A stretch of 42,739 bases of DNA from an uncultured Mediterraneibacter sp. (lineage in GTDB: Bacteria > Bacillota > Clostridia > Lachnospirales > Lachnospiraceae): NCBI GenBank assembly GCA_944377745.1, contig CALWFV010000030.1, positions 1-42,739 of the forward strand, given 5' to 3'. Numbering within the stretch: the stretch's first letter is position 1; the number at the start of each line of letters is the position of its first letter. Made by a program: the position numbers and the translations under genes. The notes under the pieces are model-generated. The model did no database searches. It worked only from the letters and a program-made list of their open reading frames with translations, and had not been told where the DNA came from. This document shows, piece by piece, positions 4,568 through 36,061 of the stretch.

Positions 4568-4822
4568 AAAAAAAGTCGCCTCCTTTTCGTACTTTTGACT
4601 TCAGTACGACAAGCGGTGACTGTACACTCTCCCGTGTGTGTCGTGAGAAACTTACACGTTGTTTCATACTTTTCCCTTCTCTGGTAATCAGTAATCAGTT
4701 GTGATTCGTACAGTGACTTGTCGCCAGTTTCCTAACTTGACATTCGCTCCACGGAAAACCTGCCTTCGCTTATCTTTTTGCTCCGGCAGCAACCTCACGC
4801 TTCACAGCTATCATGTCACAGC
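4568..4822 (-). promoter_or_regulatory. S10 operon leader RNA
   Basis: Non-coding 5' leader of about 255 nt between the predicted transcription start and rpsJ. Visible pairings include CGTACT/AGTACG at 4589-4609 and a long-range CGACAAG/CTTGTCG (4607-4613 with 4716-4722). Such leaders often carry a ribosomal-protein binding site, commonly for L4; that is only inferred here. I see no small ORF with a convincing start. Confidence 0.5.
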
Positions 4823-14611: not shown

Positions 14612-14709
14612 TGGCGGGGACATGTGGGAATCGAACCCACCCGGGACGTCTCTTACGCCCCACTCAGGTTTTGAAGACCCGGAAGCACACCAGTTACTTT
14701 TCTGCCCCC
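14612..14709 (-). tRNA. selC: tRNA-Sec (anticodon UCA)
   Basis: A 98-base tRNA read on the minus strand. The anticodon arm is CGGGT-CTTCAAA-ACCTG, giving anticodon TCA. It has the long variable arm typical of selenocysteine tRNA, the T arm GTGGG-TTCGATT-CCCAC, and a 3' end CCCCGCCA, so CCA is encoded. The extended acceptor stem begins GGGGGCA at 14709 and pairs with ATGTCCCC; the eighth pair looks mismatched. Its size and ending resemble the known E. coli selC. It lies between the DUF3343 gene and hydF and has its own promoter. Confidence 0.93.
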
Positions 14710-32867: not shown

Positions 32868-33076
32868 GATGAAGGCGTCAAAAAACTTTTTTGACGCCTG
32901 TGATACCGGCTTGCTCCGTGCTTACGCACTCTCACAAGCCTCAAAACATTCGAAATCCGCTCATTTTTCTACGAAAAATGGCTACTTTCTCATGTTTTGG
33001 GCGGGTCAAGTAGTCAAAAATCCTCTCTCAAGCAAGCTTGCGTCGGATTTTTGTCTATTTGACCCTGGTATCATCA
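32868..33076. repeat. MITE-like element made of four consecutive hairpins
   Basis: Ends TGATGA...GTCAAA on the left and TTTGACCCTGGTATCATCA on the right, an imperfect inverted pair. Inside are four hairpins: 32874-32898 (GGCGTCAAAAAA with its complement, 1-base loop), 32908-32940 (GGCTTG/CAAGCC with GTGC/GCAC), 32942-32999 (CAAAACAT/ATGTTTTG with CATTTTT/AAAAATG) and 33003-33065 (about 21-base arms). The accB stop codon lies in its right end. It fills nearly all of the fabZ-accB spacer; the rest (32771-32867) is AT-rich and shows nothing. Confidence 0.65.
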
Positions 33077-33565: not shown

Positions 33566-34804
33566 TTACCCTTCATACTTTTTCAACAGCAGTGTTGCGT
33601 TATGTCCGCCAAATCCAAGAGAGTTCGTCAAGACATAGTTCACATCCTTCTCAACCGGAGCGCCTACGGTGTAGTTAAGATCACATTCCGGATCTACGTT
33701 CTCCGTGCCCATTGTCTGATGGATGAATCCGTCCTGGATACTCTTTACACAGACAACAAACTCGACTCCGCCCGCTGCTCCCAGGAGATGGCCGATCATG
33801 GACTTCGTTGAGTTGATGGAAACGTCTTTCGCCGCATCTCCCAGCGCGTACTTGATTGCTCTGGTCTCAAACAGGTCGTTGTGATGTGTGCTTGTTCCGT
33901 GTGCATTGATATAATCGATCTGCTCCGGAGCGACTCCTGCTTCCTTCATGGCGAGTTTCATCGCCATTCCTGCACCTTCTCCGCTCTCTTCCGGGGAAGT
34001 GATGTGGTAAGCGTCGCCTGTTGCGCCGTATCCCACCAGCTCTGCATAGATCTTCGCACCGCGGGCTTTCGCGTGTTCCAGTTCCTCAAGGACAACAACC
34101 CCGGATCCCTCGCCCAGGACAAATCCGTCTCTGTCCTTGTCAAACGGACGGGAAGCATGTTCCGGATCGTTTGTCGTTGACAGTGCTGTCAATGCTGTAA
34201 ATCCTGCGATTCCTGTGGGGCATACGGAAGCCTCCGTACCGCCTGCCACCATCACGTCCGCATCGTCGTACTGGATCGCACGGAACGCATCTCCAATGCT
34301 GTGTGTACCGGTAGCACATGCGGTCACAACGTTGGTACATTTTCCCTTCAGTCCGAGCTGGATGGAAATGTTTCCTGCTGCCATGTTGGAGATCATGAGC
34401 GGAACCATCAGCGGGTTTACCTTGTTCGGTCCCTTTGTAATGATCTTCTCATAGTTTGTCTCCACACACTGCAGGCTTCCGATCCCGGATCCAACGATGA
34501 CTCCGCACCTGTACGGATCTTCCTTGCTCATATCAATGCCGGCATCCTCGAACGCCTCTTTCGCTGCAGCAACCGCATACTGCGAAAACGGCTCCATTCT
34601 CTTTGCAGCCTTGAAGTCCATGCGTTCCTTTGCCACAAATCCTTTTACTTCAGCCGCGATCTGAACCTTAAAGTCAGACGCGTCGAATTTCGTGATCGGT
34701 CCAATGCCGACCTTTCCTTCTCTGATCCCGCTCCAGAACTCCTCCACCGTATTTCCGATCGGTGTCACAGCCCCAAGACCAGTCACCACAACTCTTCTTT
34801 TCAT
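33566..34804 (-). CDS. fabF: 3-oxoacyl-ACP synthase II FabF
   Basis: FabF (412 aa) condenses malonyl-ACP with acyl-ACP. The catalytic triad is Cys163 (VVTACATGTH), His302 (NAHGTSTHHND) and His339 (KSMIGHLLGAAGG). The start MKRRVVVTGLGAVTPIGN at ATG 34804 is canonical, with GGAAAGGAAAGAG upstream; 15 more codons are open upstream but not family-like. It is separated from fabG by a 516-base non-coding region full of repeats, although both belong to the same operon direction. Confidence 0.96.
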   Translation of the reverse strand: MKRRVVVTGLGAVTPIGNTVEEFWSGIREGKVGIGPITKFDASDFKVQIAAEVKGFVAKERMDFKAAKRMEPFSQYAVAAAKEAFEDAGIDMSKEDPYRCGVIVGSGIGSLQCVETNYEKIITKGPNKVNPLMVPLMISNMAAGNISIQLGLKGKCTNVVTACATGTHSIGDAFRAIQYDDADVMVAGGTEASVCPTGIAGFTALTALSTTNDPEHASRPFDKDRDGFVLGEGSGVVVLEELEHAKARGAKIYAELVGYGATGDAYHITSPEESGEGAGMAMKLAMKEAGVAPEQIDYINAHGTSTHHNDLFETRAIKYALGDAAKDVSINSTKSMIGHLLGAAGGVEFVVCVKSIQDGFIHQTMGTENVDPECDLNYTVGAPVEKDVNYVLTNSLGFGGHNATLLLKKYEG

Positions 34805-34873
34805 ATCAATAACTCTTTCCTTTCCGGAGCCATTCTCTGCCCGCTCCATCCATTCCTGTCCTCATTCATCTTC

Positions 34874-34991
34874 TTCTGTCAGGATTAAGTTCCCTTTTGC
34901 CTGGGTCAGCCCCTTTTGCGCAGTCCAGCAGGAGACGCTAAAGCCCCTACCAGCATCCTCAACAGCCTTCTGTCAAGATCAAGTTCCCTTT
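34874..34991. repeat. Short direct repeats in the fabG-fabF spacer
   Basis: About 24 bases repeated at 34874-34897 and 34968-34991 (TTCTGTCA-GAT-AAGTTCCC with two differences). A 30-base block containing GGGTCAGCCCCTTTT and CAGTCCAGCAGG also occurs at 34903-34932 and again at 35135-35164. These repeats interleave with the 104-base hairpin repeats, suggesting successive duplications. Confidence 0.6.
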
Positions 34992-35012
34992 CGCGGCTGT
35001 CCAGCCGGAATG

Positions 35013-35116
35013 TTCTGTGTTGTCACTAAGGACCGTTAAAAGAACGCCGGCACTTAGGCCGCGTCCTTTGCGGTCTTAGTACCGCTGCGTTCTTTTCCGA
35101 GCGCAAGCGTGTCCGC
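35013..35116 (-). repeat. 104-bp structured tandem repeat, copy A (fabG-fabF spacer)
   Basis: Contains a long hairpin at 35038-35096: outer arms AAAAGAACGC/GCGTTCTTTT, then CGG/CCG, then ACTTAGGCCGC with GCGGTCTTAGT around a 7-base loop. It is nearly identical to copy B, 157 bases away. Of five differences, one couple (35060 with 35072) swaps a C-G pair for T-A, and another turns G-U into G-C. Confidence 0.75.
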
Positions 35117-35169
35117 AGTGAAACCGTCCGGCTTGGGTCAGCCCCTTTTTCACAGTCCAGCAGGCGGCT

Positions 35170-35273
35170 TTCTGTGTCGTTACTAAGGACCGTTAAAAGA
35201 ACGCCGGCACTTAGGCTGCGTCCTTTGCAGCCTTAGTACCGCTGCGTTCTTTTCCGAGCGCAAGCGTGTCCGC
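35170..35273 (-). repeat. 104-bp structured tandem repeat, copy B (fabG-fabF spacer)
   Basis: Second copy, hairpin at 35195-35253. The inner stem is ACTTAGGCTGC with GCAGCCTTAGT; the changed bases at 35217 and 35229 still pair. No ORF of note. It lies about 47 bases after the fabG stop in the direction of transcription. Confidence 0.75.
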
Positions 35274-35320
35274 TGGAATGACACAGACAGCCGCCTGCGC
35301 CCCTGCGAAAAAACCTGATC

Positions 35321-36061
35321 TTACATTGCCATTCCGCCGTCTACATTAAGCACCTGTCCGGTGATATACTTCGCGTCATCGGAAGCCAGGAACGCCACCG
35401 CGTTTGCAATATCCTCCGGCTCGCCGAATTTTCCAAGAGGAATCTGCGCTACAGCTCCTTCTTTCACTTTATCTGAAAGCACTTCTGTCATCTCCGTATT
35501 GACAAATCCGGGCGCTACAGCGTTCACTGTCACTCCGCGGCTTGCCAGTTCCCTTGCCACAGACTTTGTCAGTCCGATCACGCCTGCCTTGGAAGCGGAG
35601 TAGTTGGCCTGTCCTGCATTTCCAAGGACTCCGGAAACAGAAGCCATATTGATGATGCGTCCGCCTCTCTGCTTTATCATCTGTCTTGCCACGAAACGGA
35701 TGCAGTTGAACGTTCCTTTCAGGTTCGTGTTCAGGACAGCATCGTAGTCTTCCTCGGACATCTTCATCAGAAGACCGTCTCTGGTGATCCCTGCATTGTT
35801 TACAAGGATATCGACGCTTCCGAATGTAGAGATGATCTCTTTGAACATCTCCTCACACGCTGTAAAATCAGATACATTACACTGTCTGATCTCCACTTTT
35901 CCTCCGGCTGCCTCAATCTCTTTCTTTACTTCCTCCGCGCGCTCCTTTGATCCGTTGTAATTCACGATCACTGTCGCGCCCTCTCCAGCCAGCTTCAGCG
36001 CCACCGCGCGGCCGATTCCGCGGGAAGCACCTGTCACTACGGCAACTTTTCCATTTAACAT
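35321..36061 (-). CDS. fabG: 3-oxoacyl-ACP reductase FabG
   Basis: FabG (246 aa) reduces 3-oxoacyl-ACP with NADPH. Short-chain dehydrogenase with the cofactor loop TGASRGIG (10-17), NNAG (88-91), and catalytic Ser141, Tyr154 and Lys158 (YSASK). The C-terminus [12 protein letters not shown] is typical. The start overlaps the fabD end by 7 bases, so the two are coupled. Downstream is the repeat-rich spacer before fabF. Confidence 0.96.

Follow-up and report, generated by a model that had tools for sequence, protein, structure and literature searches.

The non-coding DNA between fabG and fabF in the window (the whole stretch of DNA analysed here, 42,739 nucleotides) holds two tandem copies of what is probably a family-specific, non-coding element of the MITE kind, one whose folded core has been retained and is presumably functional. 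The fab genes lie on the minus strand in the order acpP, fabK, fabD, fabG, fabF, accB, fabZ and accC, and the products of all eight scored above the NCBIfam cut-offs. A gap of 516 bp, the very length of non-coding sequence that the initial annotation had given for it from the letters of the DNA, separates the FabG stop (35321) from the FabF start (34804). The two 104-bp copies that it described there correspond to a direct repeat with a spacing of 157 bp and 95% identity (Table), and the copies differ, as it had counted, at exactly five positions (35021/35178, 35024/35181, 35060/35217, 35072/35229 and 35074/35231). Both of the compensating couples that it pointed out were recovered in the fold of the plus strand, with C-G at 35060-35072 replaced by T-A at 35217-35229, and G-U at 35058-35074 replaced by G-C at 35215-35231. 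The hairpin of ~59 bases that it placed in each copy is present as well, but is merely the inner part of a longer palindrome, an element of ~150–190 nt.

With its outer arms, copy 2 has a fold z of -10.3 (0/200 shuffles were as low) and is matched at 35156-35304 by our covariance model R1, trained on a diverse set of 56 copies, with 127.1 bits; in the fold of copy 1, 8 nt of one outer arm are without a partner. In the fab-locus alignment the outer arms of the window copies reach the fabG stop codon, and with the arms running to that stop the element in the window has no defined ends. The arm sequences D3 and D4, on the fabF side of copy 1, may be what is left of a third, core-less copy. A tandem arrangement like that of the window was also seen in another genus (genome G150, locus L248 2007-2531), in which three copies follow each other with a 187-bp period.

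Table. Features of the window and the basis on which each was placed
Feature	Position	Strand	Basis and remarks
S10-Clostridia ribosomal protein leader	4718-4813	-	Rfam
Selenocysteine tRNA	14612-14709	-	Rfam
Clostridiales-1 RNA	32901-33073	-	RF01699, 125.6 bits; directly after accB stop, same operon
fabF	33566-34804	-	TIGR03150, 621 bits (cut-off 494); next operon gene
Leftover arm sequences D3, D4	34873-34994		direct repeats
Copy 1 with outer arms, outer stem damaged	34999-35139	+	R1 model match, 114.2 bits; fold
Copy 1, 104-nt core repeat	35013-35116	+ (folded strand taken as plus, antisense to fab)	direct repeat D1
GNRA tetraloop GCAA, copy 1	35103-35106	+	sequence; aligned copies
Copy 2 with outer arms, one long imperfect palindrome	35146-35312	+	inverted repeat I1; fold z
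Copy 2, 104-nt core repeat	35170-35273	+	direct repeat D1
GNRA tetraloop GCAA, copy 2	35260-35263	+	sequence; aligned copies
fabG	35321-36061	-	TIGR01830, 358 bits (cut-off 298); gene before the element

On one strand (the plus strand of the window) a core of ~90 nt would fold into a fixed shape, made up of an inner hairpin whose helices stack and are interrupted by internal loops, a side hairpin capped by a GNRA loop, and a closing helix. This core would sit on an outer stem of ~20 bp, which keeps most of its pairing despite wide variation in sequence. The RNAalifold consensus of 56 copies (alignment A1, from which aberrant copies and near-duplicates were dropped; 58 were listed and L085 and L068 omitted) comprises 45 pairs, and two-sided changes occur in 35 of the 45 (0/500 shuffles). 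Paired cells came to 94.4%, compared with 74.7% in shuffles and 31–44% in controls with slid partners, and two-sided cells to 533 compared with 167; further pair types showed no excess over shuffles (87 vs 85.8; 196/500 shuffles). Four of five covariation measures lay beyond all 500 shuffles and one did not, and counts of this sort can be inflated by the relatedness of the copies and by template switching. Variation is greatest in the outer stem, yet 90.2% of it is paired, and its helix 1 has two-sided changes in 19 of 20 pairs.

We have taken the plus strand of the window, antisense to fab, as the putative folded strand because of the GNRA loop and a bias in the A-C and G-U mismatches of the aligned copies. 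On the strand opposite to fab, the loop of the side hairpin reads GNRA in 138/140 aligned copies (GAAA, GAGA, GGGA, GCAA, GGAA, GCGA or GUAA) and in 104/105 after thinning; at the fab locus it is GNRA in 20/20 alignment rows, with four different loops. These counts come from an alignment (A2) in which the seven lowest of 147 rows were dropped, and were preferred over the tally of a loose pattern (229 GNRA of 264, with 19 not found), which hit elsewhere too. An A-C mismatch on one strand is a G-U pair on the other, and when the 105 thinned copies are read on the fab-sense strand, A-C mismatches outnumber G-U pairs by 120 to 75, or by 119 to 39 once pair 77/139 of A2 is left out. That one pair counts against our choice, since in 36/105 copies it reads as G-U in the fab sense and as C-A on the strand we propose, and the difference in folding energy between the strands is small, the proposed strand being lower in 147/258. 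The fab sense strand was nevertheless rejected as the functional RNA, given that A-C exceeds G-U on it and that the tetraloop is GNRA on the opposite strand alone.

The genome of the window itself contains 28 matches at 27 places (E ≤ 0.01), one palindromic copy being matched on both strands. At L011 8361-8567, where both strands are matched, the right half resembles an inverted copy of the left half. The element was present in 42/58 genomes of a genus sample (E ≤ 1e-5). The initial annotation had proposed that relatives be searched with a covariance model, and had let its reading hang on whether other copies keep their pairs; model R1 found matches in 58/150 genomes of a family sample with one genome per genus (E ≤ 1e-6), and the pairs are kept across the 56 copies of the consensus. 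The same model matched 25/245 genomes of an order sample and 4/299 of a phylum sample, all 25 and all 4 of them within that family. Among the matches listed from a scan of named genomes (80 of 116 stretches) the titles give Mediterraneibacter, Eisenbergiella, Lachnoclostridium, Ruminococcus, Eubacterium and Lachnospiraceae, and some merely Clostridia, Clostridiaceae or Eubacteriales. We infer the family to be the Lachnospiraceae, to which the element seems specific. Neither the 50,697 phage records nor the 72,556 plasmid records searched contained the 104-nt sequence, and Rfam 15 yielded nothing at the gathering score, either at the window element or in 13 loci with copies; weaker Rfam matches (E ≤ 10) were rejected as far under their cut-offs, the best at the element being mir-5881 with 22.2 bits (cut-off 87). 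In the open literature on repeats, MITEs, palindromes and structured noncoding RNA of Lachnospiraceae and Mediterraneibacter we found no paper on the element; a paper on structured RNAs of the human microbiome describes palindromic candidates, and its main text does not name the Lachnospiraceae (PMC8040213).

Several genomes contain near-identical copies whose alignment ends sharply. Evidence of mobility comes from genome G207 ('Clostridia bacterium isolate B91_16_CH_BP'), in which the unit starts with CAATGTCATTWAGTTAAG and ends with its complement, which gives it 18-bp inverted ends. Allowing ≤2 mismatches, CAATGTCATTWAGTTAAG occurs 126 and 136 times on the two strands of this genome, and a reversed control pattern 0 and 1 times. 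Among 29 units recognised in 35 loci, 26 measure 189 bp, two 158 bp and one 103 bp, and 22 of the 29 are flanked by a 10-bp target duplication (≥9/10 match) compared with 1.45 in a shuffled-flank control. The same 18-bp ends bound a 1711-bp element in G207 (L264 2251-3961) with an open frame for a 436-aa IS4-family transposase (DDE_Tnp_1; NF033592, 127.5 bits, cut-off 115); beyond these ends we found no similarity between it and the small unit. The element is short, non-coding and present in many copies both in the window's genome and in G207, and in the latter it has in addition terminal inverted repeats, target duplications and an autonomous relative with the same ends; judged by these marks, it moves like a MITE in G207, one genome other than that of the window. 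One of the readings offered by the initial annotation, a structured mobile repeat, is thereby strongly supported, by the dispersal of the element, by its kept pairing and by the transposon ends, duplications and transposase gene of G207.

Transposases of insertion sequences would move the element in trans through its ends. Copies in G085 and G098, of two other genera, have other ends (in G098 a target duplication was seen by eye at 2/5 copies), and comparison with the ends in G207 therefore indicates one core that travels with different ends. This suggests that different transposases are at work and that the element would have changed its ends between genera. In G085 several copies (L237, L239, L240 and L241) share extra sequence outside the element, 5' of the folded strand. 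A 103-bp unit (L268 2346-2448) lacks the core, so that its arms meet, and has a 9/10 duplication; either its core was lost after insertion or the ends suffice, and because a core-less unit has such a duplication, the core may be dispensable for mobility. Some G207 target sites (L122, L180 and L187) look by eye like short palindromes, GTAACAGTTCAGCC...GGCTGAACTGTTAC, and are perhaps the ends of an older repeat. The orientation of the G207 units is random, with 5 between genes that are both antisense, 7 between genes that are both in sense and 14 mixed (26 units with both neighbours). From a wider set of 300 hits, 53 were dropped for a missing neighbour; among the 247 copies left, which have a gene called on each side, the gene lying 3' is antisense in 158 and antisense within 60 nt in 97. 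An insertion bias behind stop codons was considered and dropped, since many of the copies are orthologous, the genes were called as simple ORFs, and the fresh insertions of G207 have no such bias.

Our survey of the fab locus took in 38 of the 53 genus genomes with a fabF match, namely the 30 with the highest FabF scores and 8 picked for having the element. The fabG-fabF gap contains it in 11 of those 30, in addition to the 8 chosen as carriers. All 19 carrier loci have the insert after fabG and in the same orientation; 18 of the 38 are without it, with gaps of 11–267 bp (10/18 under 100 bp), and the one further locus has a 24.6-bit trace only. For each of the 20 fab copies, the nearest among 109 copies is a fab copy of another genome, which favours descent over new insertion. 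A tree of the short core left the fab copies ungrouped, 16/20 falling together only within a clade of 55 that has no support. In the fab copies of G046, G049 and G053, one outer arm has an 8-nt gap. The median identity to window copy 1 over 18 comparisons is 0.88 for the core, 0.56 for the outer arms and 0.32 for the flank, and in the same comparisons 0.83 for fabF and 0.50 for fabF fourfold sites, so the core is kept more strictly than the adjoining coding sequence.

A second old site of the element lies ahead of ileS (TIGR00392, 985 bits, cut-off 621), where we compared 15 loci that were selected for carrying the element and are thus uninformative on how often ileS has one. The median identities to the copy in L101 are 0.88 for the core, 0.80 for the arms and 0.62 for fourfold sites, the ileS frame used for the last starting ~33 codons inside the element, and in the 12 more distant loci they are 0.85, 0.68 and 0.60, respectively. 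These figures compare leader copy with leader copy (a variant that took the best of several pairs gave 0.89 for the core and 0.62 for the arms), and the arms, at 0.80, are not clearly neutral. Because the core exceeds the fourfold sites in identity both at fab and at ileS, the comparisons support purifying selection on the core at these two loci. In the ileS leader the folded strand is in sense and the outer stem ends ~22 nt before the start codon, and in the predicted folds of two diverged leaders the Shine-Dalgarno GGAA is paired with an upstream UUCC; a leader RNA with a paired Shine-Dalgarno sequence would be the simplest reading of this arrangement. No T-box was found there by Rfam at the gathering score in L101 and L109. 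The front of ileS often has two copies that face each other (13/15 loci, e.g., L101 2322-2694), and the distance between them can be as little as 34 bp (L101) or 40 bp (L109). Another copy, also with the folded strand in sense, lies close before plsX (start codon uncertain).

The initial annotation had gone from compensating changes to selection for RNA structure, a step that was only half right, because template switching can explain how the outer stem changes; there is support for selection on structure, but some of the paired changes may have this other source. Two copies with nearly the same core can be as many as eight two-sided changes apart in the outer stem, and across 50 pairs of copies with a core identity ≥0.95 (the pairs share copies) the outer stem has 96 two-sided Watson-Crick changes against 94 that are one-sided or non-Watson-Crick. 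For an RNA, G-U pairs are rare, with 120/4676 cells on the proposed strand and 75/4676 on the other. Template switching in replication, in which one arm is copied onto the other, has been described as a source of paired changes (PMC8794818). The rare wobble pairs and block-wise change of our element fit such a process, which can account for the free sequence of the outer stem but explains neither the constancy of the core nor that of the GNRA loop. Alternatively, the element might be a plain MITE or hairpin without function, with paired changes that come from template switching and a likeness among copies that comes from recent spread. The balance of changes in the outer stem, the scarcity of G-U, the near-identical copies in several genomes and fab outer arms whose identity lies near the fourfold value all agree with this; however, template switching cannot hold unpaired bases such as those of the GNRA loop, the core was kept where fourfold sites had fallen to 0.50 (fab) and 0.62 (ileS) and was above neutral at 2/2 loci tested, and the asymmetry of mismatches between the strands, with pair 77/139 or without it, is not expected of template switching. 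We regard a lack of function as quite improbable.

From a core that is kept, we infer a core that does something. Settled copies would owe their persistence to a use of the folded strand, most likely as RNA, e.g., in the leader of the ileS mRNA. More tentatively, we propose that a functional RNA is the cargo of changing transposon ends, becoming regulatory where its landing is useful and having its outer stem renewed by template switching; this fuller account is a real possibility, though less likely than not. If it is true, the core acquires new terminal repeats in different genera as it jumps and is kept at such places as the ileS leader and the fab operon, and the outer stem loses little of its pairing while its sequence drifts.

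At fab, where the operon runs antisense to the folded strand, the copy would persist as an antisense RNA or a DNA hairpin, and the hairpin in the fab mRNA may in addition act on the fabG-fabF message by cutting or slowing it; the copy may be an antisense RNA, a DNA hairpin or a passenger that lowers FabF through its mRNA hairpin. Within 34700-35500 no promoter-like site was found, and an own promoter at fab was rejected for this reason; there is one terminator-like site in the same interval, where 0.8 are expected by chance. That the fab core is kept though antisense, the lack of a promoter-like site there and the random orientation of the fresh G207 insertions would all suit a site that works at the level of DNA, the conserved strand being bound as single-stranded DNA or as the arm of a cruciform by a protein of replication, recombination or transposition, to which the orientation of genes is irrelevant. 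G-T is a tolerated mismatch in DNA too. DNA hairpins, however, accept GNNA loops, whereas here the third base is a purine in all 138 of the G-N-N-A loops, which is the RNA rule, and the ileS copy lies in sense in a leader whose predicted fold pairs the Shine-Dalgarno sequence, so that we think a DNA-level site rather unlikely.

We are about equally doubtful of an action on the fab mRNA, in which the hairpins would end, slow or cleave the transcript and thereby lower FabF relative to FabG. That the element tunes FabF relative to FabG, the other reading of the initial annotation, is neither favoured nor contradicted by the findings. The fold is strong on both strands at fab, the orientation after fabG is uniform in the carrier loci, and Correia and ERIC elements are described as altering mRNA levels through RNase III or RNase E sites (PMC10969869). 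Yet the features that appear selected, the GNRA loop and the wobble bias, are on the other strand, and nearly half of the genus loci surveyed (18/38) do without the element. We prefer the reading in which the folded strand serves most likely as RNA. The element also suggests a hitherto unrecognised ileS leader in Mediterraneibacter. Descriptions of bacterial MITEs mostly concern the ends. In the present element it is the ends that change, and a folded core specific to one strand persists across a family of gut bacteria, which makes it a natural example of the way in which a mobile repeat may turn into a regulatory RNA. As the core and the outer stem evolve under different rules, the element is also a test bed for telling selection for structure from template switching.

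REP/REPIN elements and integron attC sites are imperfect hairpins, often behind stop codons, with one working strand. The element would resemble them in these respects, and differs in its longer conserved core and in the partner that was found, a DDE transposase. The Clostridiales-1 RNA is likewise a structured RNA with multiple copies in the genome of the window, one of them ~2 kb away in the fab operon; we rejected it as a relative, as the two sequences differ by eye and the element has no match to RF01699. Clostridiales-1 has 7 copies above the cut-off in this genome and 6 weaker ones. With IS4-family insertion sequences the element shares the 18-bp ends and the 10-bp duplications of G207, but beyond the ends it differs from them, and the copies of G085 and G098 end otherwise. 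We liken it by general properties to MITEs such as ERIC and Correia/NEMIS: these too are short, non-coding, palindromic, intergenic and multi-copy, and form long hairpins if transcribed (PMC10969869), and their inverted ends and target duplications are found here as well, in one genome (G207). Unlike them, the element has an inside that is conserved across a family while its ends differ, its fold is specific to one strand and carries a GNRA loop, and at least two of its old insertions look selected in place.
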